Below are positions 209 through 38,300 of a DNA stretch of 64,000 nt, in pieces. Under the pieces are notes generated by a model. It did no database searches and was not told the DNA's origin. It was given only the letters and a program-made list of their open reading frames with translations. The position numbers were made by a program, and so were the translations under genes. The DNA comes from a virus. The stretch's first letter is position 1. The number at the start of each line of letters is the position of its first letter. The DNA is taken from IMG/VR virus record IMGVR_UViG_3300009128_000006, positions 1 to 64,000 of that record; one strand, 5' to 3'.

Positions 209-362
209 TTCCACATCCCCAATGGGATAGATATCCCAAAAGGCATGTTTCATACCACCACTTTTTTGCCCGTCGCGCTTGCCGTTTCCAGCTACGCTGT
301 GGGGTGGTGGTCTTTCGGGTGTTCCAGCAGTTCACGGGATTTTACAACCTCCATTAGTTCCA
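1..362 (-). ncRNA. Group I self-splicing intron in the DNA polymerase gene (partial, 3' part off the window)
   Basis: Read on the minus strand, the polymerase exon ends CAACCTT (369-363) and the intron starts at 362. The exon end pairs with AGGTTG-type guide sequence at about 351-344, giving a P1 helix that closes with the expected U-G wobble at the splice site. The core has a P-like element with CTGCTGG (about 332-326) and a Q-like element AATCAGCAGCCAAG (about 204-191); CTGCTG and CAGCAG form a perfect six-pair P4 helix. The reading frame stops at TAA, three codons into the intron. The R and S elements and the 3' splice site lie outside the window, so the intron is incomplete here. Confidence 0.88.
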
Positions 363-7960: not shown

Positions 7961-8720
7961 CGTCGCTCAGGAGCAGGGACTCGCCATGCACCTTGTGGCC
8001 CAGCTCCTCCACCAGGGAGAGGGCGTACCGTAGGTCTTCCATGATGGCGTAGGTGACCCCTCGCTTCTTCTTGATCTGCGCAGCATCTCCTTTCCGAAGC
8101 GCGTAGCTCGGATCGAGTAGAGCCATCATCGGGTAGCGAACAGCCACGCCTGTGGGAGGAGAGGGGACAGAGATGTCGAAGATCCTGCCGCGCTTATGGG
8201 TAATCGGCACCATCTTGCCGACCAGGGCACTCGCTGCCGTCTTTCCTGTGGCGATGATGAGCTTCGGGTCCACCGCATAGATGGCTCGCTGGAGCCGTTC
8301 CCTGCACGCCTTCACTTCATTCCTCGAAGGCGACCTGTTGTCCTCTGGGAAGCACATCACGATATTCGTCCAGTAGATGTACTCGTCGAGCAGGTCTCTG
8401 GCGGCATCGAAGTATTCGGCCTCGTTCTCGATCTCCCTGATCGACTCAACGACCTCTCGGTCGGGCCACACATTGAGAATGAGATCCATGAGGAGCTCTC
8501 CGGCGGGCCCTCGGAAGGACTCTCCCATCCCATCTCCAATAGATCCCGGAGCCTGACCGATCACCATTAGCGAAGCCGAGGCACTTCCACTGCCGAAGAC
8601 GATCTGGTTTCGGTTGGCACAGAGCGAAGGACACTTCTGACAGTCCCGGTACTCGTCTCGCAGGCTCACCAAGGCCGGGAGCCCGACAGACGGAGCGAAA
8701 TGGGCGAGGGCGGAGCTCAT
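7953..8720 (-). CDS. Uracil-DNA glycosylase, family 4/5-like
   Basis: 255 residues that would remove uracil from DNA. The N-terminus has Cys27, Cys30 and Cys34 (CQKCPSLC); family 4 enzymes use four Cys for a 4Fe-4S cluster, and a candidate fourth is in TNIVMCFPE. The active-site block is GQAPGSIGDG (55-64), followed by FRGPAGELL. A later block KLIIATGKTAASAL matches the glycosylase fold. The ATG forms an ATGA overlap with the preceding gene. In the replication operon it could keep uracil out of the phage DNA or help DNA processing. The enzyme class is clear, the exact family less so. Confidence 0.85.
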   Translation of the reverse strand: MSSALAHFAPSVGLPALVSLRDEYRDCQKCPSLCANRNQIVFGSGSASASLMVIGQAPGSIGDGMGESFRGPAGELLMDLILNVWPDREVVESIREIENEAEYFDAARDLLDEYIYWTNIVMCFPEDNRSPSRNEVKACRERLQRAIYAVDPKLIIATGKTAASALVGKMVPITHKRGRIFDISVPSPPTGVAVRYPMMALLDPSYALRKGDAAQIKKKRGVTYAIMEDLRYALSLVEELGHKVHGESLLLSDDG

Positions 8721-11024: not shown

Positions 11025-11030
11025 CTTATG
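11025..11030 (-). promoter_or_regulatory. CATAAG element at the divergent junction
   Basis: CATAAG on the minus strand (CTTATGACGG on plus), 36 bases upstream of the TTG start of the 10994 gene and 43 bases before the rightward gene at 11073. It is one of a set that precedes every leftward unit here. Confidence 0.45.
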
Positions 11031-11072
11031 ACGGAGTTGCGGACGATATGTTAGGTTCAACACGAGGTGCCC

Positions 11073-12109: not shown

Positions 12110-13642
12110 ATGGCCACCCCCCTCCCAGAGCTGCTGGGAGATGAGCAGGCTCATCCGCTTGCTCTCTTCGCAGGACTCTCACGCCGCTACGGCATGAGCT
12201 GGGTGGAGTGGTCTGCCTCTACGCTCCGCATCTCACTGGAACAGCTGCTTGTAGGGAGTGGGCAGGAGCTCGTAGAGATCAACCTCCATAAGGCCCTTGC
12301 CGCCGCCGCCCTCTCGAACTCTGATGGGTTCTGGAGGGACTGGCCGACGTTCCACTTCCTCTGCAATCCCCTCAACAACAACATCCCGAACCCTTCGGCG
12401 CATCAGGATCTGACTGTTGCTCAGATGATGGTTGCGGTAGATATCGCCATATCCTTGCGGAAGCTCCTGAAGAAAGTGCACCAAAACCCCTCATTCTCCG
12501 AGGAGGTTGCACGGTACGTGGCTGCGCAGGCACTGACCCAGGGCGTGTGGTACCTTCCGGGTGCGCTTGCCTTCGCAGCTCAGTTCGCAGAAGGACGGAA
12601 CTACAAGTGCAAGGATTGTGGCAACGAAGCTGAGATCATCTTCGATGACGCGACCTGTGACGTCTGCACTGAACGGTGGGACGCTACGAGTTTGGGATCG
12701 TGGAAGCCGAACCCGGACCTGGTGAAGAAGTGGGGTAAAAACCTACGATTCTTTTCCAAGAACCCGACGGATCGGGTCGAAGCGCGGCTGGAACAGGTAC
12801 TCGGCAACCCGACCATCGTGCTTCGTGAGAGCCAGACAGATCGCTGCGTGGCACACATCCTCGTAGCTCTACAGTACGTCGGGTACCGGCGGGAGCAGTA
12901 CAAGGTTCAGACTTCGAAGATGCTTCCTGAGGCTGAGAAGGTGGCCTTCTTCTCTCCTCGTCGGATGGGCCAGCAGGTGAAGTGGATGGGTCAGCAGATG
13001 GCCTCTCCCAAGAAGTGGCCTGAGAACATCCGCAAGGGCTTCAAGGCGACGACGAATATGGGTGGGGACATCCACACCACTACCTCTGCGGGAGGACGGG
13101 AGCGCATCTTCAAAGGCTCCAAGAACGATCTCAAAGAGCGGGTACAGGAGCACGCAACGGGAACGGGTGATCGGGACGCGCTCGAGTTCCTTCGGGGGAA
13201 GAAGAAGGGCAAGCACAAGTACACCGCCGACTTCCACACTGGAACCCGTCTACGGGACAAGGCCCGCCGTGCAGGACTCCTCTCCAACGTGGCGAAGTAC
13301 GAAGGACCAGACAAGGTCCGGAAGACCTTCAACACTCTCAACCGTGCCCGCCCAGGCACCATGGCCGTAGCGGCCCCTCTTACAGCCGTCAGTGCTCGGG
13401 AGAACCTGAAGAAGGAAGACCCCCACACCGGAAGGCAGCGGTCTAAGCTCGAGCGGGCAGGGAGAGCTGTAGGCGGGGCTGCTGCAGATGTTGCCGGTAT
13501 GCGGGTGGGTATGACGGCAGGCATGCTTGCCTCGATGGCAGGAGAGTCCGCAGGAGGCGCAGCGGGACGAGGTGTTAGCGGTACAGGGAAGGCTGTGAAG
13601 TCTGGGGTTGAGAAGTTCAGGGCCCGCAAGAAGGCTGAGTGA
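12110..13642 (+). CDS. Virion-associated protein with zinc ribbon and glycine-rich C-terminus
   Basis: 510 residues from ATG at 12110 (MATPLPELLGDEQAH); the frame upstream overlaps the previous gene and is not used. An N-terminal helical domain is followed by a zinc ribbon CKDCGNEAEII..CDVC near 167-184. A basic linker with RRMGQQVKWMGQQMASPKKW comes next, and then an Ala/Gly-rich stretch near 455-495 (GGAAADVAGMRVGMTAGML) that could lie in a membrane. The stop shares a base with the portal start, suggesting coupled translation with the portal. The role is unknown; a membrane-active internal head protein is one possibility. Confidence 0.6.
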   Translation: MATPLPELLGDEQAHPLALFAGLSRRYGMSWVEWSASTLRISLEQLLVGSGQELVEINLHKALAAAALSNSDGFWRDWPTFHFLCNPLNNNIPNPSAHQDLTVAQMMVAVDIAISLRKLLKKVHQNPSFSEEVARYVAAQALTQGVWYLPGALAFAAQFAEGRNYKCKDCGNEAEIIFDDATCDVCTERWDATSLGSWKPNPDLVKKWGKNLRFFSKNPTDRVEARLEQVLGNPTIVLRESQTDRCVAHILVALQYVGYRREQYKVQTSKMLPEAEKVAFFSPRRMGQQVKWMGQQMASPKKWPENIRKGFKATTNMGGDIHTTTSAGGRERIFKGSKNDLKERVQEHATGTGDRDALEFLRGKKKGKHKYTADFHTGTRLRDKARRAGLLSNVAKYEGPDKVRKTFNTLNRARPGTMAVAAPLTAVSARENLKKEDPHTGRQRSKLERAGRAVGGAAADVAGMRVGMTAGMLASMAGESAGGAAGRGVSGTGKAVKSGVEKFRARKKAE

Positions 13643-15693
13643 TGGGTACGCATTTCCTCTCCGGAGCACAGCAGAACCGCTACAACCAGCGGCCCTCAAC
13701 CAACTTCCTTGGCTCTCGTGGCTTTGGGATTCGCTACCCATCCCCCTTCTTCGATGTCGCGCAGCAGTTCCTTCCCGAGAACGTACATCAGCTTCAAATC
13801 TGGTGTCGCTTCTACTTCCTGACGAACCCAGTGGTGAACGTCGGCTGCAGGAAGATGTCGGAGTACTCGGTCACGCCCATCATCTGGCAGACCGAGGATG
13901 AGCAGGTCCTCCGGCTCTACAAGGATGTGGAGCGTAGGCTCCGGTTCCGGCAGTTCCAGGTCGAGACAGGTCTCGACTACAACGTCTACGGCAACTCCTT
14001 CACCTCAGTCCTCTTCGGACTGGAGAAGTACCTGGGCTGCCGCAAGTGCGACATGCAGTTCCGTGCCCGTACCAACCGCAGCCTCTACAAGTGGCGGTCA
14101 GGCCGCTTCCATCTTCGTTGTACCAGCTGCCGGTATGTCGGCCCGGCCAAGCAGCACGATTACTACCCTCGAAGCGTTCGCCGTATCCGAATCGTCAGGT
14201 GGAATCCTGAGAACATCGACATCAAGCACAACGATGTCACCGGGGCCAACAGGTACTACTACCGCCTGCCTCGTCGTATCCGGAATGACATCAAGCTCGG
14301 GGACAGGGAGACCATCGAAACGCTTCCGGCTCCGTTCCTGGAGGCCGCCCGTCGAGGGAAGGCGCTTCTCTTCAAGGATGGGAGCATCTTCCATCTGAAG
14401 CGTCCCACTGTGGCCACCAAGGACATGGGCTGGGGATCGCCCCTCATTTACCCACTCCTCAAGGATGCGTTCTACCTTCAGGTCCTGAAGAAGGCACAGG
14501 AAGCTCTGATGATGGAGCATACGGTGCCCCTTCGGATGATCTTCCCCGGCCCCTCCACAGGCGGGAACGACAAGCCGTACAGTGCCTACAACCTGGGAGC
14601 GTGGAAGTCGAAGATCGATGCCGAGATCAATGTCTGGCGGCGTGACCCGAACTACATCCCCATCCTGCCGGTCAACATGGGGTACCAGCAGCTTGGCGGC
14701 ACAGCCAAGGCTCTCATCCTCCATCACGAGTTCCGCCTCTTCGCCGAGCAGATGCTCAGCGGTATGGGGATCCCGCCAGAGTTCGTCATGGGCGGTCTGC
14801 AGTGGTCGGCTTCGAACACAGCTCTGCGCGGCCTGGAGAACACCTTCCTCGGCTACAACGAGGATCGCTACGGCCTGATGGACTGGGTGGTGGAGAAGCT
14901 CTCCTCCCATATGCAGTGGCCCAAGGTGCCGTTCGCCTTCGGCAAGTTCAAGATGGCCGACGACCTGCAGCGGTCGATGTTCCTCTTCCAGCTCAACCAG
15001 GCACAGAAGATCTCCGACCGACGTCTCCTCGAAGATATCGGGGAAGACTTCGACCTCGAGAACAAGAGGATGGGCGAGGAGCTCAACAAGCAGATCGACA
15101 CGCAGCGGAAGATGCAGCTCGCGGCCGCAGACGTGCAGGGCGCAGCACAGCTCCGGACAGGGAGGTACCAGGCCAAGGTCCAGGAGCTCCAGATGGCCGC
15201 ACAGATGCGTGCCCAGATGGAAGCTCAGATGGCACAGCAGCAGGGCGCTGGGGGCGCTCCTGGGCAGGAACAGCAGCCGCAGCAGGGACAAGAGGCCCAA
15301 CCCCAGCAAGGCCAGGAGCAGGGCCAGGAGCAGCCTGCTGGAGCCTCCGAAGGCTCTGTGAATGCCGAGAATGCTCAGGCTCCGAACGAGTCGGCCGTGC
15401 CTACGGCCATGGCCGGGATGGAGTCTCCCATCAATGCGGGCCAGCAAGGCGGCTTCGACCTCACCTATGTGGCACAGCGCGCAGCTTCGTACCTGCGGCA
15501 GGTGAAGGAAGAGGGCGGGGAGCAGGCGATGTATCAGGAGATGCAGCGCATGCAGATGGAAAACCCCAACCTGTATCGCCTCGTTGTTCAGCTCATGAAC
15601 GATCAAGGCGCGAACACCGATCCCATGAACGCGAATCAGATGCCGCAGCCTTCGCAGCGTGCGCAACGGCGTGATCCTGCACGGCAAACTTGA
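13642..15693 (+). CDS. Portal protein with an inserted zinc ribbon
   Basis: 683 residues. The portal is the ring at the head vertex through which DNA is packaged. The core resembles phage portals: LYKDVERRLRFR, a long central domain with GGTAKALILHHEF, then GMGIPPEFVMGGLQWSASNT and helices at 480-530. Cys133, Cys136, Cys160 and Cys163 (CRKC and CTSC) form a zinc ribbon inside the N-terminal half, which is unusual for a portal. From about 535 the tail is very rich in Gln, Gly and Pro and looks disordered. The ATG shares a base with the preceding stop. Family assignment rests on overall pattern and context with the terminase. Confidence 0.78.
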   Translation: MGTHFLSGAQQNRYNQRPSTNFLGSRGFGIRYPSPFFDVAQQFLPENVHQLQIWCRFYFLTNPVVNVGCRKMSEYSVTPIIWQTEDEQVLRLYKDVERRLRFRQFQVETGLDYNVYGNSFTSVLFGLEKYLGCRKCDMQFRARTNRSLYKWRSGRFHLRCTSCRYVGPAKQHDYYPRSVRRIRIVRWNPENIDIKHNDVTGANRYYYRLPRRIRNDIKLGDRETIETLPAPFLEAARRGKALLFKDGSIFHLKRPTVATKDMGWGSPLIYPLLKDAFYLQVLKKAQEALMMEHTVPLRMIFPGPSTGGNDKPYSAYNLGAWKSKIDAEINVWRRDPNYIPILPVNMGYQQLGGTAKALILHHEFRLFAEQMLSGMGIPPEFVMGGLQWSASNTALRGLENTFLGYNEDRYGLMDWVVEKLSSHMQWPKVPFAFGKFKMADDLQRSMFLFQLNQAQKISDRRLLEDIGEDFDLENKRMGEELNKQIDTQRKMQLAAADVQGAAQLRTGRYQAKVQELQMAAQMRAQMEAQMAQQQGAGGAPGQEQQPQQGQEAQPQQGQEQGQEQPAGASEGSVNAENAQAPNESAVPTAMAGMESPINAGQQGGFDLTYVAQRAASYLRQVKEEGGEQAMYQEMQRMQMENPNLYRLVVQLMNDQGANTDPMNANQMPQPSQRAQRRDPARQT

Positions 15694-17494: not shown

Positions 17495-20400
17495 ATGGCG
17501 AAGCTCGACACCCGCGCACTCTTTGAGAGCATCAAGACCCGGACCACGGCAGAGATCCGTCAGCAGTTCCCCTTCGAAGGCCGTACTCGCCGCCTCGAGC
17601 TCGTAGACATCAAGGTCGAAGATCAGGCCAGGCTCCCAGCAGATCTGCATCACACAGACAACATCGAGGCCCAGGCTCATGCGAAGGCCAAGGGCCGTAC
17701 CTGGGGCGTTCCTGTCCGGGCCACGCTCCGGCTCGTAGACAAGTCCACAGGGAAGCCCGTAGATCAACAGTCCTTGGTCATCCTCCGCCTTCCGAAGATC
17801 ACGAGCCGCTACAGCTACATCATCGCCGGACAGGAACGGCAGCACGACAGCCTCTTCCGCTCCAAGCCGCGACCGTACCACCGCATCGCCAACAACGGAG
17901 ACATCCAGGCCCGGTGGAACCTCGCCCGAGGCCTGGGCTTCGACATCACCTACGAGCCGAAGAAGGGTCGGTTCCTCATGCGCTTCGGGACCTCGAACGT
18001 CCCGATGCACCCCATCCTTCAGGCTCTCGGAGTCTCTGATGCCAAGATGCGGCAGACATGGGGTGAGGCCGTCTTTGCTGCGAACCAACGGGCCGGAAGG
18101 AGGGAGCGGGATGTCACCAAGGCGTTCACGGCCCTTCGTCTCATGCCTCCAGGACAGAAGCGGGCCACGCATGAGCAGAAGGTGGCCCTTCTGCGGAAGT
18201 ACTTCACCGAGGAGACGGAGGTGTGGCCGGATGCCATGAAGTCCGTCTTCGGCAAGGAGTACTCCAACGTCAACGGCGAGAACCTTCTCCTCTCCTCGAA
18301 GCGGCTCCTGAAGATTCAGAAGGGCCGCTCCAAGGACGCGCCGCCGATTGATGAGCGCCCTGATGATCGCCAGTCTCTGTCGACGAAGTACCTCGCGACC
18401 ACAGAGGACTTCATCATCGAGTCCATCCGGAAGCAGTCTCGTGACCTGCGGCGAAAGGTGCTCTCGAAGATCGACCGCGAGGACGCCCGCATCTCGGACA
18501 TCATCTCGGCCAGCCTCTTCAACAAGGTTGTGCATGGCGTCTTCGACCACGCCCAGCGGCCTGATCAGACCAACCCGCTCCAGTTCCTCTCCGGTCACAT
18601 GCGGACCACCATTCGAGGTGCGGCCTTCGGCGGTGTCGGCTCCACGCGCGTGAATCTGGACAAAGACAAGCAGATCAACCCCACCCATCTGGGGTTTCTT
18701 GATCCTATCCAGACCCCAGAGTGCTGGCCGGGGCATGCCGAAGTCTTCACGAAGGAGGGCTGGATCCGCTGGGACCAGACCGCAAACGATACGGAGTTCC
18801 TGTGCCGCCAAGAGGGGAAGACCTTCTTCCAGGCGGCGGTCCGGGTTCACAGGGGCCCCTACTCCGGAGACCTCTACTGCCTCGAGCATGGCAAGATCTC
18901 CTATGAGGTGACTCCCAATCACCGGATGTGGGTTGACACCGTGAGCGGTCCCTCATCTTGGCGATTCTCGACTGCGAGCCGGGTGCACGGCAAAACGCGC
19001 CGTTTCGACACAGGACACAGTCCCGCCGAAGGAGAACTTCGCGAGTTCACTCTCCCTGTTGTGCCGGGGAACAACTCCTCAAAGAATGTTGAAGAGCCCA
19101 TCGACATCGAAGATTGGGCAGAGTTCATGGGCTGGTTCCTGTCCGAAGGTACGGTTCATTACCGAGAAGACAAAAGCCGCTACAACGTACGCATCGCTCA
19201 AGTCGCATGGAAGAATCTGGCGGAGTACGAAGCGATCGAAGCCCTTCTGGATCGGTTGCCTTTCAACTGGCATTGGGATGGAGAAGGGAAGAGCTTCGGC
19301 ATCTCGACCAAGCAACTTGCGCACTACCTCCGGCAGTTCGGAAAAGCTCACGAGAAGTTCATCCCAGACTACTTCTTCGATGCCACTACGGAAGCGCGAG
19401 AGGCCTTGTTGGAGGCTCTTCTTCTTGGAGACGGCCGTATTGGTTCCGTTCGTAAGGACGGCCGCTCTTACGAGCAGCAGGTCTACACGACTACCAGTCC
19501 TCAACTGGCCATAGACGTAGAACGTCTGGCAGTCTCGCTCGGCTACCCGACCAAGATCTCCCGCTATGAGGACAACCGCGAAGATCGGTATCTCGACGTC
19601 TATGAGGTACGACTCCTGCAGCATCGCTATCGTACGGCCACCCCACGCCACCCCAACTACCCTTCGAGATACCACAGGAAGAAGTACTCAGGGCAAGTCT
19701 ACTGCGCGACTGTTCCAGGAGGCCTCCTTTACTGCCGGATGCCCGGAAAGGTAGGATTCTGGTCAGGGAACTCCGATGAAACGGGTATCGCCCTGCATCT
19801 CCCTCTCGGAGTCCAGCTCACACCAGCCAAGCAGCAGAAGGGCAAGTCCCGCGTCTCGCCAGGCCACGAACTGAACACCAAGGTCTACGACCGGAAGAAG
19901 AAGGACTGGGTCCTGGCCACCCCTGCCGATCTCGAGCGGGAGAACGTCGCATATCCGGACCAGGTGAAGTGGACGAACGGCCGCCCCACACCAGTCTCCC
20001 GGGATGTGGTCTGCTACGACTCGGAGCGGGGTACGTCTTCTCGCCCCTGGGCACAGGTCCGTTACATCCTCCCTTCCTCGAAGGCTCTGCTCTCTTTTTC
20101 TGCGAACCTCATCCCGTTCCTGGGTAGCAACTCCGGGAACAGGACCATGACCGGCTCCAAGATGCAGGAGCAGGCAGTCGCACTCAAAGATCGAGAGGCC
20201 CCGCTTGTTCAGACGAAGACCGATGGCAAGATGACTTTCGAGTCAGCCCTCGGTACGACCTCCTCTCATCGGTCTCCGGTGGCAGGAACGATCACACGGG
20301 TGACGAAGGATGCTATCTTTATCCGTCCATCCTCAGGAGGAAAGGCAGTAAAAGTACCCATCTACAACCACTTCCCTCTCAACGGGAAGAAGGGGATGAT

Positions 20401-23400
20401 TCACGCAGAGCCTGTGGTGAAGAAGGGCCAGAAGGTGAAGGAGGGAGATCTCCTCGCAGATACGTCGTTTACGAAGGGCGGCACCCTGGCCATGGGGAAA
20501 AACCTCCGGACGGCCTACATCCCATGGAAGGGGCTGACATTCGAGGACTCAGTGGTCATTTCTGAGTCGGCATCGAAGAAGCTCACATCCTCACATTTGC
20601 ATAAGGAGTCGGTGACGTTCTATACCGGCATGCTTGGTGGGAAGCCGGGCTCCAAGGCAAAGTGGGTGGACTACGCTTTGCCGGAGCGTACGACTGCTGA
20701 CAAGCTCGCGAAGCTCGATGATGCGGGCATCGTAAATGTCGGCACGAAGGTGGTGGACGGTGACGTCCTCATCGCCGTCTTGTCGCCTTCGCAGCAGACC
20801 AAAGAGGATGCGATTCTCAAGAGCATCCATCGGTCTCTGGTTCGCGACTACCGCGACCGCTCCGTTGTCTGGCACCATGACTATCCAGGCACGGTGGTCA
20901 AGGTCACTCGTGCCGGGAAGAAGGTCACTGTCCATGTGAAGACCGAAGAGCCTATGACCATCGGCGACAAGCTCGCAGGTCGCTACGGGAACAAGGGTGT
21001 GGTCGGGCGCGTGGTTCCAGACAAGGAGATGCCACGAACGAAGGATGGCAAGCCGCTGGACGTTTTGTTCAATCCTGCCACAGTCGTCTCTCGGATGAAC
21101 CTTGGTCAGGTGTTGGAGACTGCTGCAAGCAAGATCGCGCGGAAGACTGGCAAGCCTTTCGTGGTCGAGAACTTCGCAGCGGGTGTGGACCATACTCAGC
21201 AGGTCAAGGATGCTCTGAAGAAGCACGGCCTCTCAGACACCGAAGAGGTCATCGATCCTGCGACAGGGAAGCCCATCGGGCAAGTACTGACGGGTGAGCA
21301 GTACATCATGAAGCTCCACCACATGGTGGATAAAGCCATGACTGCGCGTTCTTACGGGACTTACACCTCCTCCGGCGCAGCCCCTGCAGGCTCTGGCATT
21401 CCTGGTGGTGGCCAGAAGATGGATGCCTTGGCGACCTATGCCCTCCTCGCACACGGAGCGAAGCACAACCTCCGAGACGCTCAGACCATCAAGTCCGATG
21501 GTGACCAGGAAGAGGTGTGGGATGCCGTGATGCTCGGCCGTCCATTGCCTCCGCCGAAGCCGACGCGAGGCATGACCAACATGCTCTCGTACATGCGGGC
21601 GATGGGTATCGATACCGAGAAGAAGGGCAACAACTACGTCATCTCCCCGCTCACGGATAAGCAGGCTCTCGCCATCTCCAATGGCGAGATCAAGATGCCC
21701 CACAAGGCGCTGTACGCGAAGGGCGCACGCACTCTCGAAGAGGCACGCGGTCTCTTTGATCCACGAGTCACGGGCGGAATGGATGGCCCTTACTGGGGAC
21801 ACATCAAGCTGCAAGAGCGCATGCCGAACCCGATGTTCCAGGGAGCTATCCAATCCCTGCTTGGCATCACGGACAGGCAGTACAAAGAGCTCGTAGGTCC
21901 GAAGCTCCAGAAGGACGGCTCCTCTGGTTTCGACGTCATCAACCAGCGGCTCGGGGCCATCAACGTAGACCGCGAGCTGGCAGCTACTCAGGCTCAGCTC
22001 CCGAAGCTCACGGAGTCCAAGCTCAACAAGGCTCGGAAGAAGGTCAAGTACCTTCAAGCCTTGAAGAAGCTGAAGGTCTCTCCGGTGGATGCGTACACCA
22101 GCAAGGTTGTACCTGTCATTCCGCCGACGATGAGGAAGATCTCCATCGGTCTGGATGGGAAGCAGATCCTCGATGACCTCAACGGCCTGTACCTCTCAGT
22201 CGGCCAGGCCAATGCCGCGTTGAAGAACGCAGACCCTTCGACTCCGAGGTCAGAGCTTCAGAAGTCAAAGGCCCACCTGTACCAGGCCACCGCGGGGCTG
22301 CGGATGACGGGTACTTCCATCGGCGGCCGCCACCACCGCGGACTGATGGAGAGGCTCATCGGCAAGGTGCAGGGCGTAGGCCAGCCGAAGCACTCCCTGT
22401 TCCAGTCGGGAGTCCTCGGTAGGCGACAGGATCTCTCCGGCCGCTCGGTCATCATCCCTGAGCCAGACATGGGCCTCGACGAGGTCGGTATTCCCATCCC
22501 CATGGCGATGGAGATGTATCGCCCCTTCGTCGTCCGAGAGCTCGTACGGGAGGGAACGGCCCCTCTTGATGCCGACAAGCTCATCGACAAGAACGATCCT
22601 CGGACCCTTCACGCCTTGAAGCGTGCAGTGGCAGATCGTCCCGTACTGATGAAGCGTGACCCTGCCCTGCACAAGTTCTCTGTCATGGGGTTCAAGCCGA
22701 AGCTCGTGAGCGGGAAGTCCATCCAGATCCATCCGCTCGTCACGGGCGGCTTCAACGCGGACTTCGACGGCGACAAGATGGGCCTCTTCGTACCGGCCTC
22801 TGAAGAGGCAAAGGACGAGGCCCAGAAGCTCCTGCCCTCGAAGAACCTGTTCAGCCCGACCCACTTCGGACTGATGCCGACCCCCTCACAGGACTCCCTC
22901 CACGGGATCTACCTGTCCACGAAGTGGGGCCGTCCTGTCACAGTACCGAAGGGAACCACCCGGCAGCAGGCCGTTACCATGCTGCGGAAGGGCGAGCTCA
23001 AGCCCTCGGACGTCATCACCATCGACGGCAAGAAGACCACGCCTGGCCGTCTTGAGCTTGCTTCCAGACTCCCGCCCGCCATGCGAGATGATGCGCGGCT
23101 CTTGTACGACAAGAACTTCAAGCTCGACAAGAAAGGGATGAAGGCATTCCTCACGGATGTGGCTCGGAAGCATCCGAAGCAGTTCGGCGTGGCCGTCAAT
23201 GCCTGGAAGGACCAGGGGAATCGGGTCTCCTTCACTGCCGGAGCTTCGTTCTCCCTCAACGACTTCCACGATGGGAAGAGGGCCCGGGATCGCATCCTCG
23301 CCAAGTACAAGCGCAAGGAGGCAGAGATCCGGTCCTCCCGGAAGTCTCGTCGTCAGAAGGACAAGGCCATCGTCGCGCTCTATGCCAAGGCTCAGGCGGA

Positions 23401-26032
23401 ACTCAAGGCTGCTGGCATGGAGATGTACGGCAAGAGCAAGAACCGTGTCTACGAGTGGGCACAGTCCGGCGGCCGTGGTGGTTGGAACCAGTTTGGCCAG
23501 ATGGTCTTCGGCCCGATGCTCGTCACCGATCCGGAGAAGCGTCCAGTCCCTGTCCCGCTCACGAAGTCTTACGGCGAGGGTCTTCCCATCTCGCAGTACA
23601 TGGCCGCGATGCACGGAGCCCGAAAGGGAACCCTGGACCGCGCAGCAGGTACGCGAGACCCTGGTGCCCTGACTAAGGACATCATCAACACCGTCATCGA
23701 CTACAAGGTCTCGGCCGAGGACTGCGGCTCTACGCGTGGCACGAAGATGCCAACCGCGAGCGTGGACACGGCGGACAGGTACCTCATCACCCCGGTCAAG
23801 TTGAAGGATGGCACGACCATTCAGGCAGGCACGCTTCTGACCTCGCCACTCCTGACCCGGATGCGGAACTCTGGAGTCAAGGAGGCACACGTCCGTTCAC
23901 CCTTGCACTGCAAGATGTCGAAGGGGATCTGCCAGCACTGCCTCGGCCTCTCCGAGCGAGGGAAGCATCACGATGTAGGTACCAACGTGGGGGTCATCTC
24001 TGGCCACGCGCTGGGAGAACCGGTCACACAGCTCACCATGCGGTGCAACGCTGCAGGGAACTTGGTCCGTATACGCGCCGGGGAGGACATCTTTACCTGC
24101 TCTCTGGAGCAGCTCTGGCAGTCCATTCCCGGTACGGTTCGCGTGGATGACGACCCCGGACATACGCGAATCGAGACGAAGGCAACGCCAGGTTTGGAGG
24201 TATGGGACCAGACCGGGTGGACGAGGATTCGTACGATCCAGAGACATCAGCAGGATGACGAGATGTACATCTCTCGTACATCATCGGGACGTGCCTTCGT
24301 ATCGCAGGGGAACCATCCGAACTGGGCCCGCCAGAACGCTCCTGCGTGTACCTCTTGCGGGTGTGAGGAGCCTCACAAGTTCAACAGCCGGCACCAGCGC
24401 AGAGGCGAGGACATGGTCACGCTCCGATGCGTGGAGTGCGACCATCGTTTCACGGTCCGGAAGGGTGAGTACGAGCGGGGCCAGGAGCGGGTGGTCTACA
24501 CAGAGAATCTCCAGGGCCTGCTGATCGGAGTCTCGGAGGCGCCCAAAGACACCGTGCCTTTCGAGCTTCCGATGCCTCCGTACCTGATGGGTATGTGGCT
24601 CGCAGAAGGGTGCTTCCGCCATGAGAAGAACAAGACTCTCCGACTGGAAGAGGGAACGCAGCGACGGGTCAAGCGTAGTCACACGAACTACCGGAAGCTC
24701 CACTCACTGATCATTACTCAGAAGCCTGGAGTGATTCACGACCAGATCCTCCAGGAGCTCGATGAAGCGGGCATCTCGTACCATGTCTCTGGCAAGAACA
24801 TCATCTTTGGAGATGTAGAGCTTTGCCAGCGACTATGGGGCTGCGGAAGCAAGGCATCTGAGAAGCAGCTTCCTCCCGGATTCCTTGCGATGTCGAAGGA
24901 ATCCATCATGGAGTTTTTGGCGGGATACTACGACGGAGACGGTACTTGCGACCCAGGTGAGACACGCTTCTCTTTCGACACTACGAGCTGGACTCTCGCG
25001 TCTCAGGTTGCAGAGCTTGTACGCGCGATAGACGGAGTGGCGAGTCTCTACAAAACCCCGTGGAGAGGTACCTCTCAGAACCAAGGCTACCGCGTCAATG
25101 CAGCCCTCTATGAGCCTTTGCCGTCTGTGAAGGGCCACCCGCTTCGGACAAGCCTCAACTCTGAGTTCGACGATTACGAACAGGTATCTGCCGTGCAAGA
25201 GGTTGAATACGGAGGGGGCTTCGTGTACGACATCGCTACAGAGACGAGGGCTTTCTCGTCGAACGGGGTTCGCACTCACAACACCTTCCATACCGGTGGA
25301 TCGGTCGGCAACGATGGTGTCGTGGATGCCTTCCAGCGGGTGAAGCAGCTCTTCTTTGTTCCGAAGAGGCTTCCAGGATCTGCGGCCTTGGCGACGGTCT
25401 CCGGCCAGGTGTCCCTGGTCCGACAGAATCCTCTCGGAGGCTACGACGTTGTCATCGAAGGGAAGACGCACCGTGTCATCGAAGGGAAGGTGCTGCCGAG
25501 CATCCGAAAGGGTGTGCATGTCAAGAAGGGTGATCCACTCTCCTCCGGCTCCATCAATCCGCATGAGCTCCTGCAGCAGACCAGGAGCATGGGGCGGGTT
25601 CGTGACTACCTGACTACTGAGGTTTCCAAGGCGTATGGCGGGTCCGTACGTCGTCGGCATGTGGAGACGGTGGTGAGGGCCATGACGAACCTCACCATGG
25701 TCAACTCTGCTCCACCAGACTCCGGCCTGATGCGCGGCCAGCTCACGCCCTTGTCACGCGTGAAGGCGTACAACGAGGAGGCCAAGGCCGAGGGGAAGCC
25801 GACCATCCTTCATACGCCTCAGCTCCGTCCCATGACGGAGATGCCATTGGCAGGTAAGGAAGACTGGATGGCGCGGTTGAACTACCGTCGCCTGAAGGAG
25901 ACGTACCAGGAAGGTGCAGCACAGGGCTGGGCCTCGGACATTCACGGAGATCATCCGATTCCTGGTCTGGCTCATGGTGCGGAGTTCGGGCTGAAGCCCT
26001 ATGAGCCTCCGAAGGTTCCCGGGAGACGGTGA
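17495..26032 (+). CDS. Fused beta-beta' multisubunit-type RNA polymerase with two inteins
   Basis: 2845-residue precursor, about 2082 after removing two inteins. The beta part has SANLIPFLGSNSGNRTMTG, AYIPWKGLTFEDSVVISES and KLAGRYGNKGVVGR followed by SRMNLGQVLE, all close to cellular RpoB. The beta' part starts near residue 1419 (GLFDPRVTGG), but the N-terminal zinc finger of RpoC is gone. It has GRRQDLSGRSVI, the catalytic NADFDGD (1754-1760), GARKGTLDRAAGT at the bridge-helix and trigger-loop region, the second zinc site (EDCG, then CKMSKGICQHC) and GEPVTQLTMR. ATG at 17495 (MAKLDTRALFES) is preferred over an open upstream frame. No alpha or sigma gene is seen. Its place among late genes suggests packaging in the virion. 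Confidence 0.95.
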   Translation: MAKLDTRALFESIKTRTTAEIRQQFPFEGRTRRLELVDIKVEDQARLPADLHHTDNIEAQAHAKAKGRTWGVPVRATLRLVDKSTGKPVDQQSLVILRLPKITSRYSYIIAGQERQHDSLFRSKPRPYHRIANNGDIQARWNLARGLGFDITYEPKKGRFLMRFGTSNVPMHPILQALGVSDAKMRQTWGEAVFAANQRAGRRERDVTKAFTALRLMPPGQKRATHEQKVALLRKYFTEETEVWPDAMKSVFGKEYSNVNGENLLLSSKRLLKIQKGRSKDAPPIDERPDDRQSLSTKYLATTEDFIIESIRKQSRDLRRKVLSKIDREDARISDIISASLFNKVVHGVFDHAQRPDQTNPLQFLSGHMRTTIRGAAFGGVGSTRVNLDKDKQINPTHLGFLDPIQTPECWPGHAEVFTKEGWIRWDQTANDTEFLCRQEGKTFFQAAVRVHRGPYSGDLYCLEHGKISYEVTPNHRMWVDTVSGPSSWRFSTASRVHGKTRRFDTGHSPAEGELREFTLPVVPGNNSSKNVEEPIDIEDWAEFMGWFLSEGTVHYREDKSRYNVRIAQVAWKNLAEYEAIEALLDRLPFNWHWDGEGKSFGISTKQLAHYLRQFGKAHEKFIPDYFFDATTEAREALLEALLLGDGRIGSVRKDGRSYEQQVYTTTSPQLAIDVERLAVSLGYPTKISRYEDNREDRYLDVYEVRLLQHRYRTATPRHPNYPSRYHRKKYSGQVYCATVPGGLLYCRMPGKVGFWSGNSDETGIALHLPLGVQLTPAKQQKGKSRVSPGHELNTKVYDRKKKDWVLATPADLERENVAYPDQVKWTNGRPTPVSRDVVCYDSERGTSSRPWAQVRYILPSSKALLSFSANLIPFLGSNSGNRTMTGSKMQEQAVALKDREAPLVQTKTDGKMTFESALGTTSSHRSPVAGTITRVTKDAIFIRPSSGGKAVKVPIYNHFPLNGKKGMIHAEPVVKKGQKVKEGDLLADTSFTKGGTLAMGKNLRTAYIPWKGLTFEDSVVISESASKKLTSSHLHKESVTFYTGMLGGKPGSKAKWVDYALPERTTADKLAKLDDAGIVNVGTKVVDGDVLIAVLSPSQQTKEDAILKSIHRSLVRDYRDRSVVWHHDYPGTVVKVTRAGKKVTVHVKTEEPMTIGDKLAGRYGNKGVVGRVVPDKEMPRTKDGKPLDVLFNPATVVSRMNLGQVLETAASKIARKTGKPFVVENFAAGVDHTQQVKDALKKHGLSDTEEVIDPATGKPIGQVLTGEQYIMKLHHMVDKAMTARSYGTYTSSGAAPAGSGIPGGGQKMDALATYALLAHGAKHNLRDAQTIKSDGDQEEVWDAVMLGRPLPPPKPTRGMTNMLSYMRAMGIDTEKKGNNYVISPLTDKQALAISNGEIKMPHKALYAKGARTLEEARGLFDPRVTGGMDGPYWGHIKLQERMPNPMFQGAIQSLLGITDRQYKELVGPKLQKDGSSGFDVINQRLGAINVDRELAATQAQLPKLTESKLNKARKKVKYLQALKKLKVSPVDAYTSKVVPVIPPTMRKISIGLDGKQILDDLNGLYLSVGQANAALKNADPSTPRSELQKSKAHLYQATAGLRMTGTSIGGRHHRGLMERLIGKVQGVGQPKHSLFQSGVLGRRQDLSGRSVIIPEPDMGLDEVGIPIPMAMEMYRPFVVRELVREGTAPLDADKLIDKNDPRTLHALKRAVADRPVLMKRDPALHKFSVMGFKPKLVSGKSIQIHPLVTGGFNADFDGDKMGLFVPASEEAKDEAQKLLPSKNLFSPTHFGLMPTPSQDSLHGIYLSTKWGRPVTVPKGTTRQQAVTMLRKGELKPSDVITIDGKKTTPGRLELASRLPPAMRDDARLLYDKNFKLDKKGMKAFLTDVARKHPKQFGVAVNAWKDQGNRVSFTAGASFSLNDFHDGKRARDRILAKYKRKEAEIRSSRKSRRQKDKAIVALYAKAQAELKAAGMEMYGKSKNRVYEWAQSGGRGGWNQFGQMVFGPMLVTDPEKRPVPVPLTKSYGEGLPISQYMAAMHGARKGTLDRAAGTRDPGALTKDIINTVIDYKVSAEDCGSTRGTKMPTASVDTADRYLITPVKLKDGTTIQAGTLLTSPLLTRMRNSGVKEAHVRSPLHCKMSKGICQHCLGLSERGKHHDVGTNVGVISGHALGEPVTQLTMRCNAAGNLVRIRAGEDIFTCSLEQLWQSIPGTVRVDDDPGHTRIETKATPGLEVWDQTGWTRIRTIQRHQQDDEMYISRTSSGRAFVSQGNHPNWARQNAPACTSCGCEEPHKFNSRHQRRGEDMVTLRCVECDHRFTVRKGEYERGQERVVYTENLQGLLIGVSEAPKDTVPFELPMPPYLMGMWLAEGCFRHEKNKTLRLEEGTQRRVKRSHTNYRKLHSLIITQKPGVIHDQILQELDEAGISYHVSGKNIIFGDVELCQRLWGCGSKASEKQLPPGFLAMSKESIMEFLAGYYDGDGTCDPGETRFSFDTTSWTLASQVAELVRAIDGVASLYKTPWRGTSQNQGYRVNAALYEPLPSVKGHPLRTSLNSEFDDYEQVSAVQEVEYGGGFVYDIATETRAFSSNGVRTHNTFHTGGSVGNDGVVDAFQRVKQLFFVPKRLPGSAALATVSGQVSLVRQNPLGGYDVVIEGKTHRVIEGKVLPSIRKGVHVKKGDPLSSGSINPHELLQQTRSMGRVRDYLTTEVSKAYGGSVRRRHVETVVRAMTNLTMVNSAPPDSGLMRGQLTPLSRVKAYNEEAKAEGKPTILHTPQLRPMTEMPLAGKEDWMARLNYRRLKETYQEGAAQGWASDIHGDHPIPGLAHGAEFGLKPYEPPKVPGRR
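18722..19771 (+). mobile_element. Intein 1 in the RNA polymerase (beta part)
   Basis: 350 residues. It begins CWPGHAEVFTKEG, has block B VTPNHRMW, endonuclease motifs FMGWFLSEGTV and LLEALLLGDGRI, and ends VGFWSGN before Ser+1. It splits IQTPE from SDETGIALHL, the beta-subunit IETPEG-NIGL motif. The penultimate residue is Gly instead of His, a known but less common ending. Confidence 0.93.
24044..25282 (+). mobile_element. Intein 2 in the RNA polymerase (beta' part), with zinc ribbon
   Basis: 413 residues. It begins CNAAGNLVRIRAGED and ends GVRTHN before Thr+1, splitting QLTMR from TFHTGG, an invariant beta' segment. Endonuclease motifs are LMGMWLAEGCF and FLAGYYDGDGTC. It also holds a zinc ribbon, CTSCGCEE with CVECDHRF, which may be part of the endonuclease DNA-binding region. 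Confidence 0.95.
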
Positions 26033-28433: not shown

Positions 28434-29054
28434 ATGTCCATCGCCACGCATGAGCCTCTCTTCCTCCGCGAGTACACCGTCCATGACCTGTTCGAAGGGG
28501 AGAAGCGGGCCTCACTCGTCAAGATGCCCGACGACGAGAAGAAGTGGCCGCCGTTCATCCTCTCCTCCCTTCAGCGGGAGTTCCCCTTCCTCGCTGAGTA
28601 CGACCTCGAGATCGTCCTCGACCGTGTGGAGCCAGAGGCAGGGGCTGCTCTCGGCTACGTCCAGGTTCGGAACCGCACCCGTGCGCGGCCGCAGGACGTG
28701 GGAGCTTTCGGCAACATCATCCGTATCCCCATCATCATCCAGGACCGGCGGCTTCAGAAGTTTCTGGTCTTCGAGACGGGAGGCCAGACCTACCCCATGA
28801 CTGAGGAGCGGGTGAAGCAGGCAATGATCGATCCAGGCATCTTCGACACCACCGTCGGCAAGACCCCAGGCTCCCCAAGCATCGTCGACCAGCTCTTCCC
28901 GCCGTACCAGCAGCGGCAGGGCTTCGGCCGGGTGGTGGAGCCTGCAGCAGGAGGGATCTCGAAGGTCTCCGCGGCGCCTCTGGAGGACGGCGGCCACACG
29001 ACGAAGACGGCCTCCTCCTCGATTCGTGCGCGTTTGCGGCTGGTCGCTCGTTGA
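28434..29054 (+). CDS. Hypothetical virion-block protein
   Basis: 206 residues from ATG at 28434 (MSIATHEPLFLREYTVHDLF), chosen because AGGAG lies eight bases upstream; earlier in-frame starts lack a site. It contains FGNIIRIPIIIQDRRLQKFL and a C-terminus with TTKTASSS. Its mixed alpha/beta character and Pro-rich loop give no family. The stop shares a base with the next start (TGATG). Confidence 0.58.
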   Translation: MSIATHEPLFLREYTVHDLFEGEKRASLVKMPDDEKKWPPFILSSLQREFPFLAEYDLEIVLDRVEPEAGAALGYVQVRNRTRARPQDVGAFGNIIRIPIIIQDRRLQKFLVFETGGQTYPMTEERVKQAMIDPGIFDTTVGKTPGSPSIVDQLFPPYQQRQGFGRVVEPAAGGISKVSAAPLEDGGHTTKTASSSIRARLRLVAR

Positions 29055-29941
29055 TGGACCTTCTTGTCCTACAGGCATTCACCAAGGCGGCTGCAGAGAG
29101 CGAGCGAAGACGTCGCATAGCTCGTAGTACAGCCATAGGAGCCGCAACAGGTGCAAGCGTCGGAATGGCGTGGCCCTTTGCGGCTATGTACTTGTCGCGA
29201 GGGCTTGGTGTACCGAGCTTCCGTCAAGTTCCTGCAACGACGCTTGCGGGTGCTGGCATTGGCCGTCTGGCGGCGACTCTAAGGAAAGAAGCGAAGCGTG
29301 ACTTCCATCCCGTAAAGGTGGAGGCTCCGAAGAAGAAGAGGAAGAAGTTCCCCTTCCAAGGCTTCGTTGACTTCCAAGGTTTGAAGATCGACATCGAGAA
29401 CAAGAAGGGCTCTTACAGAGAAGGCAAGTCACCCGAAGGGAAGAAGTGGCGAACCTACATGCACTGTGCGTACGGAGAGATTCGAGGCACAGAGGGCTCG
29501 GATGGCGACAAGCTCGATGTCTATGTGGGTGATAACCACGACTCTCCGCTCGTAGTCGTCATCCACCAGCAGGATCCGAAGACCAAGAAGTACGATGAAG
29601 ACAAGGTCATGATCGGCTTTGACACTGTCGCTACGGCTATCAAAGCCTACAAGCGTCAGTACGATCGTCCAGGGTTCTACCAGTCACACACTACGATGCA
29701 GATGGGCCGCTTCTGGCGATGGGTCCATGACCGTTCGAAGCACGGTAAGAAGGTGGCGAGTCGTGAGCGTAGGGGACGGATGAGTCGCGAGCTGCGCGAT
29801 CCCCGTCTGTATTCAAACCTTCGAGGGGCGATGGCTCTGGAGTCTGCCAAGAAGAGGGTTGCTGCGCACAAGGGACTGGCCAAAGGTGATGGAACTATTC
29901 GCTCAGCAGTCAGGAAGGGTCTTCTACGAGAACGACGCTAA
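29054..29941 (+). CDS. Membrane-segment protein with phage InPase (inorganic-pyrophosphatase-like) domain
   Basis: 295 residues. The N-terminus is helical with a Gly/Ala hydrophobic segment (AIGAATGASVGMAWPFAAMY). Residues about 100-205 match the InPase domain found in phage head-associated proteins: FQGLKIDIENKKGSYREG, YGEIRGTEGSDGDKLDVYVG, IHQQDPKTKKYDEDKVMIGF. Acidic residues in SDGDKLDV and DEDK are candidate metal ligands. The tail is basic. Removing pyrophosphate near the RNA polymerase would favour transcription, but the role of this domain in phages is not settled. Domain identity is likely and activity untested. Confidence 0.7.
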   Translation: MDLLVLQAFTKAAAESERRRRIARSTAIGAATGASVGMAWPFAAMYLSRGLGVPSFRQVPATTLAGAGIGRLAATLRKEAKRDFHPVKVEAPKKKRKKFPFQGFVDFQGLKIDIENKKGSYREGKSPEGKKWRTYMHCAYGEIRGTEGSDGDKLDVYVGDNHDSPLVVVIHQQDPKTKKYDEDKVMIGFDTVATAIKAYKRQYDRPGFYQSHTTMQMGRFWRWVHDRSKHGKKVASRERRGRMSRELRDPRLYSNLRGAMALESAKKRVAAHKGLAKGDGTIRSAVRKGLLRERR

Positions 29942-33553: not shown

Positions 33554-34204
33554 TCACCGCCTGAAGGCCCTACGCCCTCGACCTCCGGTCTTCGCGTCGT
33601 CTCTGCGAAGGACAGTCCGGCAAGCCTTCTGCCGGTGGAACTCGCAAGCACCGTACTCGGCAATGGCTGCACGATGCTCCTTCGTGCCGTAGCCCATGTT
33701 TCGGTCCCAGCCGTATTGGCCCCACCGCTTGTGAGCACGGAGCATGACTTCGTCCCTTCGTAGCTTTGCGAGGATGCTGGCGGCCGCTACAAGCCAGTAC
33801 TTGCTGTCTGCTCTGGGGATTGCCACTTCTGGACCCAGTCCTCCGACCTTGGTCTTCCCATCTGTGATCAGGAGCATGTCTGGTTGTAGGGACTCTACAG
33901 CCGCAAGGACTGCCCTTTTTTGTGCTTCGTGTAGCGCTCTTCCATGTCCCAGCTCATTGATGTCACGAACGGAGGCAAGGCCAAATCCGACCTCTCCTTC
34001 ATTCTCCACCAAATAGGAGATCAGAGATGGTTCCAGTCGCTCTCTCTCCGGCCGAGTGGTCTTCTTTGAGTCCCTCACTTCCGCAATAGGCCAGAAGGTT
34101 GTCAACTGGTTGAACGGAATCTCCAGAGTCATCGCGACGGCCGTGACGCAGAATGGCCCTGCGAGGGCCCCGGTGCCGACCTCGTCCAGCCCAACGTAAA
34201 TCAC
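33554..34204 (-). CDS. rnhB: Ribonuclease HII
   Basis: 216 residues. RNase HII cuts RNA in RNA-DNA hybrids and removes single ribonucleotides. Motifs: VGLDEVGTGALAGPF with catalytic Asp-Glu near residues 6-7, DSKKTTRPER near 48, LLITDGKTK near 107 and AAASILAKLRRDEVM near 138. Length is typical. GTG at 34204 has GAGGTGA just upstream and is embedded in the end of the preceding leftward frame. In this phage it may remove primers made by the DnaG-type primase. Confidence 0.92.
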   Translation of the reverse strand: MIYVGLDEVGTGALAGPFCVTAVAMTLEIPFNQLTTFWPIAEVRDSKKTTRPERERLEPSLISYLVENEGEVGFGLASVRDINELGHGRALHEAQKRAVLAAVESLQPDMLLITDGKTKVGGLGPEVAIPRADSKYWLVAAASILAKLRRDEVMLRAHKRWGQYGWDRNMGYGTKEHRAAIAEYGACEFHRQKACRTVLRRDDAKTGGRGRRAFRR

Positions 34205-35241: not shown

Positions 35242-35295
35242 GTTGGGTGTCTCCAGACCCGGCACCATGGATTAGGTGTTTACCGGGCTATTCTC

Positions 35296-35301
35296 CTTAT
35301 G
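35296..35301 (-). promoter_or_regulatory. CATAAG element between the RNase HII unit and the terminase
   Basis: CTTATGGCAGGGAAAGG on the plus strand, 60 bases upstream of the leftward start at 35241 and 12 bases before the terminase ATG at 35313. Its 3' part overlaps the terminase ribosome site. Confidence 0.42.
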
Positions 35302-35312
35302 GCAGGGAAAGG

Positions 35313-38300
35313 ATGGGCATTTACGACGAGGATCCTGACGTTCTGGAGTACTCCATTGAAGGGTGGAACTCCCTTGAGTACCGGGAGCCGTGGGATCACG
35401 AACCACCGATTCCTGCCGTAGAGGATTGGGAGGTAGAGCGACACTTGCGGGAGCAGAGGCTCCGCTACGCCCTCACCCCGTCGCAGTTCACGGAAGAGAC
35501 TGTGCTCATGCCCAACGCGAAGACGCGGGCATTGGAGGCGTTTTCCTTCGCAGATCGTCCTTACCTGAGGAAGGTCTACAATACGCAGTCCAATCGTGTC
35601 CTTCTCATGGCCGGACGGCAGGTGGAGAAGTGTGTTCATGAAGATGAAGTAGTAGTCGACTCTTTCGGCAAGCCGACCCCTATCAAAGACCTGTTGGTCG
35701 GCGATATACTTGTGTGCTTGGCTACCGAGGAAACGTCCCCGAATGTTGAGCGAGGGTCGGGATCTCGGATGACCACGTCAAAGATTACGTGGAAGTCTCG
35801 CAAGCGTAAGAAGCCTTGCCGCGAGATCCGGACGAGACAGGGCCATCGCTCTCGTATGGCTACGACACATCCTGTTCGGGTGTGGAACGGGTGGAAGGCT
35901 GCTGGAGATCTCGAAATAGGAGATCGAATCGCAGTGGTTCGTAGGGCAGGGGTGTTCAGCAGCTGCGATTACGACGTGTCTTCCTCTCGGGTACGGCTCA
36001 CCGCCTACATGATTGGAGATGGCGGGTGCAACCCCAAAGACGTGACCTTCACGAACGAGACCTTTGAGGTCCTTGACGATTTCGACGATGCTCTTGTTGA
36101 TGAAGGGATGTCGTACACCTTCTCACCCAAGAAGGATTCAAACACGACCTGCTTCCGTCTCCCTCGCTATCGAGCAGAGAAGCTCCGTGGATGGCTGGAA
36201 GAGGATGGTCTTTTGGGGACGGACTCCTACTCGAAGTTCCTTCCTGATTGGGTATTTCGTCTTTCGCGAGAGCAGACGTCTCTGTTCCTGAACAGGCTTT
36301 GGTCTACAGACGGGCACGTCAAGTGCAACACCGACACGAAGTGGTCCATCGAGTACTGCTCTATGTCGGAGAGGCTGGTCAGGCAGGTTCAGGCATTGCT
36401 GTGGAAGCTTGGCATCCCTTCCAGGATCAGAGAGAACTGGCCTTCGATCTATAAGAAGCGCGGTGAGAAGGTTCTTGCTTATATCCTCCGTATCGAGACT
36501 CAAGAAGGTGTACGTTCGTTCGTTCGTGACATCGGTGCGCTTGGAAAGATCGAGCGGCAAGAGCTTGACCCCTGGGAGACCAACAACAATCGAGACACGT
36601 TGCCGTTGGAGGTGAACGAGTTCATACGGGAGATCTACGATGAGGTCTCACCGAAGAAGGGAGACCGAACCCTTCAGTCCGCAGGACTTCGCCGTAGCCC
36701 TAAGTACTGCCTGACCCGGAAGAAGCTGCTCGCGTATGTCGAGTTTTTCGAAGGAGACCCTCGATACTCACCCTCGAAAGTTCGGCTCCTGAAGGAGCAC
36801 GTGAGTTCTGACATTTACTGGGACGAGGTGGAGTCTATCAACGAGATGGGGGAGCAGTGGTGCTACGACCTGACGGTTGATCGTCATCACAACTTCGTCG
36901 CAGGCGGGATTGTCACGCACAACAGCACCTCTCTCGGTAATCGGATGCTGGCTCTATGCTGCCTCATCCCGCATTTCCGTGCACTGTACGTCTCCCCGTC
37001 TTCAACACAGACCAAGGAGTTCTCGAACCGGCGGTTGCGTGAAGTCTTGATGACCTCGCCGCGACTGAGGACGTGGTTCCCGCAGCATCTCACGGACAAT
37101 GTCTTTGAGAAGCGAGCCATCAACCGGAGTGGAATCACACTCCGGTATGCGTTCCTCAACGCAGATCGCTGCCGGGGACTCTCTGCAGATAGTGTCATCC
37201 TCGACGAGTTCCAGGATCTCCTTCTCGACACTATTCCGGTCATCGAGGAGGCTGCGTCCCACTCCGCCTTCAAGTACTTCATCTACGCAGGAACTCCGAA
37301 GTCGCTCGACAACCCGATCGAGCACTACTGGTCCACCTTCTCGACTCGCAACGAATGGGCAGTCCCCTGTGAGCGGCACGGCACTCCTAAGGTTCCGGGC
37401 TCCTGGCACTGGAACATCCTGGGTGAGAGGAACATCTCCAAGGCCGGACCGGTCTGTGACCGCTGCGGCGGTCCCATCTTCCCCAACCATCCGAAAGCAC
37501 AATGGGTCCGTACCGGTAACCCCGACCCCAACCTCACGGTCTTTGAGGGTTTCCGCATCCCGCAGCTCATGGTCCCCTGGATCAGCTGGAAGGAGCTGTG
37601 GACCAAGTACACGGACTACCCACGTGCACAGTTCTTTAACGAGTGCCTGGGCCAGTCCTTCGATTCAGGACAGCGCCCTCTCACTCAGGACGACATCAGG
37701 CAAAACTGTGATTCCTCAATCACCCTCACTCCCGAAGGGGTGGCCGACATCCGTCGACGGATGGCGGGGGTTCAGCTCTATGGCGGCATCGACTGGGGCC
37801 AGGGCTCGACGAACTCGTACACGGTGTTCTTCGTAGGCGGGTACCTCAACAACAAGTTCACCATCTTCTTCTGCCATCGCTTCGTTGGAGCGGAATCCGA
37901 ACCGCGCACCCAGCTCAAGAAGATCTGCAGGATCATCGAGACCTTCAACCTTGCCCGCGTCTGTGTTGACCATGGTGGAGGCTTCTGGCCAAACGGTGAG
38001 CTTCTTCGTCGCTATGGCTCCAATCGCATCGTACGGGTGCAGTACCTCACGCCGAATGTCTTCATGCGTTGGGATGAGGCTCTTGGGCGGTACATCATCC
38101 ACCGCTCCGAAGTCATGTCGGCGATGTTCAATGCCATCAAGCGTGGCACCGTAGTCCGCTTCCCCGCATGGAAGTACTTCAAGACTCCATTCGCCAAAGA
38201 CTTCCTGTCCATCTTCTCTGAGTACAGCGAGAAGATGCACATGACGCAGTACAAGAAGTCGGCCAACAACACCGACGACTCCTTCCATGCGTTCCTCTAC

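Follow-up and report, generated by a model that had tools for sequence, protein, structure and literature searches.

A single-chain beta-beta' RNA polymerase gene interrupted by two inteins in a phage lineage that also encodes a sigma factor

One reading frame for beta, beta' and two inteins

We analysed a 64,000-nucleotide stretch of viral DNA (the window; positions 1 to 64,000 of the linear IMG/VR record IMGVR_UViG_3300009128_000006, 90,156 bases), in which a single open reading frame at 17495-26032 on the plus strand encodes a beta-beta' RNA polymerase (RNAP) precursor of 2845 amino acids. The ATG start at 17495 and the stop at 26032 are correct, and the frame is open back to 17384. NCBIfam and Pfam models place beta and then beta' in order in this one chain, as an earlier reading of the letters without database searches (the sequence-only reading) had proposed. 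The top NCBIfam model was the Helicobacter-type fused beta/beta' (496 bits), followed by rpoC (438) and rpoB (342). That reading was right about the single chain and did not name inteins, of which the gene carries two. With both removed, the spliced product has 2082 amino acids, 1007 of beta and 1075 of beta'. Based on homologues, intein-free relatives, the family alignment and a structure model, we divided it into three exteins, all on the plus strand like the other features of the gene given below: (i) extein A (17495..18721, residues 1-409), the N-terminal part of beta; (ii) extein B (19772..24043, residues 760-2183), the remaining beta, the join and beta' up to the trigger loop; and (iii) extein C (25283..26029, residues 2597-2845), the C-terminal part of beta'. 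The subunits meet with hardly any linker: the beta C-terminus ends in GRPLPPPKPT (21536..21565, conserved in the family alignment) and beta' continues with RGMTNMLSYM. This join lies at residue ~1357, or 1394 counted from a start at 17384, in good agreement with the predicted fusion zone near residue 1400.

The catalytic elements of both subunits are kept. Both lysines of the beta motif GDKLAGRYGNKG (20963..20998) and the three aspartates (DxDxD) of the beta' NADFDGD motif (22754..22774) are present in the window and invariant in 111/111 of the relatives described below. The second zinc site of beta' (23723..23941) has its four cysteines (residues 1727, 1789, 1796 and 1799 of the spliced protein), conserved in 106-108 of the 111, and the only other cysteine of the spliced protein is residue 490. 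At the beta' N-terminus (21566..21877), where the zinc finger was sought, the window protein and 108 of the 111 relatives have no cysteine at all. Loss of the RpoC N-terminal zinc finger, together with retention of NADFDGD and the second zinc site, had been noticed from the sequence alone, and the alignment upholds it. We modelled the first 1200 amino acids of extein B, a stretch that includes the join as well as the catalytic motifs of beta and beta' (mean predicted local distance difference test score 86.4; predicted template modelling score, pTM, 0.75). The top PDB matches were beta chains of bacterial polymerases, and the top viral matches, judged by length, appear to be two phage beta' chains.

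Intein 1 (18722..19771; 350 amino acids, residues 410-759) follows PIQTPE in beta, and intein 2 (24044..25282; 413 amino acids, residues 2184-2596) lies between QLTMR and TFHTGG in the beta' trigger loop. Each has the marks of a LAGLIDADG intein, namely a first cysteine, a terminal asparagine and a +1 nucleophile (serine after intein 1, threonine after intein 2), and each can be removed without loss of the host reading. Intein 1 has LAGLIDADG-type motifs at amino acids 135 and 229, ends in Gly-Asn, not His-Asn, and gave weak matches to intein-containing NCBIfam models; intein 2 ends in His-Asn and matches Pfam LAGLIDADG_3. In two intein-free relatives, L011 and L016 (58-59% identical), the flanks read uninterrupted as PIQTPE-GEDTG and QL(T/A)MK-TFHTGG, and the second join is also kept in L010. 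The alignment of intein 2 with the archaeal A'' intein model extends into the flank, which suggests that the two occupy the same insertion site. Across the family, insertion sites cluster at conserved motifs, near spliced residues ~226, ~409, ~600-640, ~790-835 (the lysine motif), ~1410 (NADFDGD) and ~1833 (the trigger loop); we checked intein nature at three sites and treat the other family insertions as candidate inteins. Catalytic RNAP motifs would then be repeated landing sites for inteins.

Such placement in catalytic motifs (the trigger loop here, NADFDGD and the lysine motifs in relatives) would suit inteins that regulate the polymerase by conditional splicing rather than travel as passengers. 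We consider regulation very improbable, given that the insertions are patchy, that the closest relatives of the window polymerase lack these inteins, and that intein 1 shows higher identity between lineages than its host chain does, as expected of homing elements (71 vs 56% identity for L010, 52 vs 43% for L007 and 52 vs 42% for L009). The pattern of intein 1 therefore fits horizontal homing. Other genes of the same phage carry inteins too: we noted them in the DnaB helicase gene (4247-6916, minus strand), the large terminase gene (35247-38396) and a homologue of gp222 of Salmonella phage Arash (42689-45829; intein at ~198-595 of the protein), which brings the count to at least five.

A phage clade that keeps the fusion

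A first scan of viral contigs returned 17 loci. A second, with the family alignment as query, returned 467 relatives; in the best 80 of the 467, which we examined, beta and beta' lie in one frame in 80/80, a few loci ending at contig edges. Two further scans centred on other branches raised the number of fully fused loci to 136, or 111 after dereplication, which makes 111 the minimum number of IMG/VR loci with the complete single chain. Chance or an assembly artefact is ruled out, since the protein recurs unchanged in independent assemblies and beta and beta' share one frame in 111 relatives. None of 50,697 phage genomes reaches 80% coverage of the complete chain at any one place. In a second architecture, only the N-terminal half of beta' is fused to beta, and the remainder (spliced residue ~1497 onwards) has its own gene. 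Both of its parts were seen in 50 loci, and it is common to Arash, the nearest lab-grown relative, and Vibrio phages. Judging from the ends of the rpoC1 and rpoC2 models, this break appears to lie in the region where gamma and beta' are divided in cyanobacteria. Contig-cut and a few interrupted loci aside, beta and beta' are apart in no clade member.

The interrupted loci (L013, L014, L238, L291, L321 and L345) have a frameshift, an intein-like insertion or an in-frame stop. In L013, a close relative of L011, a frameshift at ~13100 splits the polymerase into two overlapping frames, through either a sequencing error or a real change. Single in-frame TGA codons break the frame in L345 (IMGVR_UViG_3300000172_000001; 7878, 9690 and 12783) and in L321 (8886). 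Because two of the L345 codons appear, by eye, at tryptophan positions of relatives, they suggest that this phage or its host reads TGA as tryptophan.

We built quick trees of both halves under a site-mixture model (950 and 1052 columns), unrooted and covering phage and bacterial sequences, with 22 fused chains. The 22 chains form one group (support 94 for beta and 99 for beta'), which the Arash-like set adjoins, and together they are separate from all sampled bacteria in both halves (support 99-100). Other long branches are Carin-5 and YerA41, which have separate beta and beta' genes, and RHph_Y65 and Va2, sampled for beta' only. The strong similarity to bacterial RpoB and RpoC could point to recent capture of a host rpoBC, or to host contamination. 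This is extremely improbable: the best 80 matches listed in bacterial and archaeal genomes are bacterial rpoBC with only 27-34% identity in the best segment, the chain stands apart in both trees, and phage genes lie all around it. Among the cellular matches listed, a fusion occurs only in Helicobacter. There, beta and beta' are likewise joined end to end, in an enzyme that is cellular and alpha-dependent, and it falls inside Campylobacterota in both trees; on this placement the Helicobacter fusion is independent of the phage one. Because both trees set the phage clade apart from the sampled bacteria, the window polymerase is, by these comparisons, not a recent host copy, an origin that the low identity also rules out. 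The phage ancestry put forward in the sequence-only reading is borne out by one phage clade with relatives in the hundreds. The shortest history on the unrooted trees would be a single ancestral fusion, followed by a later split of beta' in the Arash-like branch.

A proposed sigma partner and probable packaging in the virion

Searches of 15 records for alpha and of 25 for omega, both with positive controls, found neither subunit. Lacking separate alpha and omega, the enzyme is therefore a relative of the cellular RNAP and not a standard one. Each of 25 records has one match to the beta barrel model Rpb2_6, so there is one polymerase per record. A profile of Arash gp10 and one homologue detected a sigma gene in 21/25 records; Pfam sigma models match in Arash and Vibrio phage D69, and in almost none of the fused records. 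Searched against PDB, the family profile gave E 6.8e-16 over regions 2-4, and 60/60 listed matches were sigma factors. The Sigma70_r3 cut-off was passed by 4/7 family members, and the Foldseek matches of a sigma model (pTM only 0.43) were sigma factors or sigma-complex models. It had been noted that neither alpha nor sigma is in the window, which is true of the window and, for sigma, wrong for the phage. A sibling contig, G002 (L008), encodes a polymerase with 100% identity to that of the window, and nearly all genes common to the two are 99.5-100% identical. It carries the sigma gene after genes homologous to Arash gp6 and gp8 (cell wall hydrolase), an order also seen in Arash itself. A phage without sigma is thereby ruled out; the gene is missing from the window's record because that record has only 17.5 kb of sequence to the left of the polymerase.

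A weak Sigma70_r4 match at record position 88803 falls in a gene similar to those for HNH endonucleases in Arash and D69. Only these two among the 25 records encode a second, different sigma (Arash, OQ632216 120656-121693, in L004; D69, OZ195729 133187-133963, in L005), a possible sigma switch. The Arash copy, Gp196, is not in the published virion table (PMC10585845).

In purified Arash particles, Gp206 (beta joined to the N-terminal half of beta') had 3516 spectra, the most of all proteins, compared with 1210 for Gp216 (the C-terminal half of beta'), 467 for the sigma Gp10, 877 for the portal and 1333 for the major capsid protein (PMC10585845). Spectra per residue are 2.3 for Gp206, 2.0 for Gp216, 2.0 for Gp10, 1.5 for the portal and 4.3 for the major capsid protein, and the near-equal first three values fit equal amounts of core, C-terminal beta' and sigma. 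The sequence-only reading had called the polymerase a probable virion enzyme, a proposal that absence from virions would have undone. The abundance of its homologue in Arash virions speaks for that proposal, and by analogy strongly, if indirectly, supports packaging in the phage of the window.

The best explanation, to which we assign a probability of about 0.8, is a single-chain core that is packaged in the virion with a phage sigma and injected. The two inteins would splice out to leave a 2082-residue chain that carries the barrels of both subunits in cis, a complete bacterial-type catalytic core in one polypeptide. With the barrels in cis, neither alpha, for assembly of the halves, nor omega would be needed. 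The phage sigma-70-family factor would dock on the retained beta' coiled coil, recognisable in the alignment as DDLNGLYLSVGQANAALK and presumably sigma-binding as in bacteria, and direct the core to phage promoters. Core and sigma, packaged and injected together, would let a phage holoenzyme transcribe the early phage genes; as each genome has a single polymerase gene, later transcription is probably also carried out by this enzyme, made anew. The inteins would be mobile passengers in catalytic motifs, outside this mechanism. A broader claim, which we hold tentatively and at somewhat less than even odds, is that chain plus sigma form the smallest known sigma-directed cellular-type RNAP, acting as virion and non-virion enzyme and making these phages independent of host polymerase throughout infection.

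Several points weigh against packaging of a self-contained enzyme. The experimental support comes by analogy from outside the fully fused members, through Arash, a relative ~30% identical with a split beta'. Spectral counts are semi-quantitative, and the Arash authors say that abundant infection proteins could contaminate particles, ribonucleotide reductases being listed too (PMC10585845). Sigma was not found in 4/25 records, some of them fragmentary, and host alpha or omega could still join the chain. If carry-over explains the Arash proteome, with its other infection enzymes, the polymerase could be made during infection, transcribe late genes with sigma and stay unpackaged, leaving early transcription to the host polymerase; its gene lies within the rightward structural block, and one polymerase per record would suit this as well. 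We find this unlikely in view of the top count of Gp206, the matching per-residue counts of sigma and C-terminal beta', the unlisted second sigma, and the place of the sigma gene in a tail and cell-wall-hydrolase gene order in both Arash and the sibling contig. Less likely still is an enzyme that borrows host alpha, omega or sigma and is no self-contained holoenzyme. The records without sigma would be in line with borrowing, as would the alpha-facing region of beta (assigned from general knowledge), which is partly kept in the alignment. On the other side stand the dedicated sigma in most records and the fusion itself, which would take away the assembly need for alpha.

Known polymerases and the surrounding genes

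The multi-subunit RNAP-encoding Caudovirales (mReC; Weinheimer and Aylward 2020, PMC7481178) resemble the window in that their beta and beta' are alignable with cellular ones, keep NADxDGD and form a clade apart from bacteria. Our lineage gave beta and beta' hidden Markov model matches (NCBIfam and Pfam in place of COG models) and NADxDGD on phage contigs, and its RNAP clade is separate from the bacteria of our trees. One fully fused locus, L331, shares metagenome 3300017989 with two of the three named mReC representatives. The major capsid model PF07068 had no match in 20 records, and the controls gave none either. On sequence criteria and the shared metagenome, the window lineage probably belongs to mReC. 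The main text of that paper speaks of beta and beta' subunits, and fusion in mReC, inteins and sigma are unmentioned there (PMC7481178). We did not find the combination of fusion, sigma pairing and inteins in the literature searched, subscription papers being mostly outside the search, and these traits of the lineage appear to be undescribed. Arash and Vibrio phages D69, D148 and D181 form the sister clade and share the portal-RNAP order, an orthologous sigma and a beta that runs on into the N-terminal half of beta', but they encode the C-terminal half on its own. In Arash the genes are labelled just 'subunit beta' and 'beta'' (PMC10585845), and the polymerase has no inteins. The family would unite probable mReC contigs, Arash and the Vibrio phages from oysters in a single lineage that has kept the fusion.

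Both barrels also share one polypeptide in crAss-like gp66, YonO and the RNAP of Thermus phage P23-45, the last of which has a known virion form; these enzymes are highly diverged with few shared elements (PMC10770324). The window chain retains the bacterial core almost in full and has a sigma. Its scores of 300-500 bits to cellular RpoB and RpoC models put it outside the undetectable divergence of gp66 and YonO and confirm that it is closer to the cellular enzymes, as had been suspected. The phiKZ and AR9 jumbo phages also encode RNAPs with virion-packaged forms, but theirs are two enzymes of 4-5 polypeptides rather than one chain and one enzyme per record (PMC7598289, PMC7824862). The enzyme would work like a bacterial core polymerase, with packaging like that of the jumbo-phage virion polymerases, and is not of the crAss/YonO/P23-45 type. 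If true, this is a two-component bacterial transcription machine, one core chain and one sigma, which would make it easier to study the true roles of alpha, omega and the beta' zinc finger, and the way in which phage polymerases are packed and injected together with their sigma.

A portal homologue lies upstream of the polymerase (13639..15693, plus strand; 30% identity to the Arash portal, E 5e-85), as it does in 85/91 relatives with enough upstream sequence. Of the earlier placement between portal and spike genes, the portal side holds and the spike side was not confirmed. At the head of the rightward block we noted a candidate promoter element, CTTATGAC...TATGTTAGGTTC (11025..11058, plus strand), conserved in the window's subclade. 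Here each locus has a single copy of the element CTTATGxC...TATGTTAGGGTC, invariably on the plus strand and just upstream of the portal-RNAP block (L010 4294, L011 3618, L016 4733, L050 ~745 and L052 1486; also L056 and L068), with a spacer ~10 nucleotides longer in the window than in relatives. TATGTTA occurs once in 90 kb vs ~11 expected at equal base frequencies (fewer at 60% GC), and a shuffle test of the window allowing one mismatch gave no excess of it. A general promoter motif was not found, the word counts being weak.

Two other genes touch on replication. The family A DNA polymerase gene stops inside the polymerase domain, and a match to that phage polymerase family also comes from the uracil-DNA glycosylase gene (window 354-1889 and 7953-8720 (-), respectively). 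The replicative DNA polymerase may be split, because Arash also has two polymerase pieces. Near the RNAP gene are also an inorganic-pyrophosphatase-like domain (PF18823) and RNase HII (window 29051-29941 and 33554-34204 (-), respectively).
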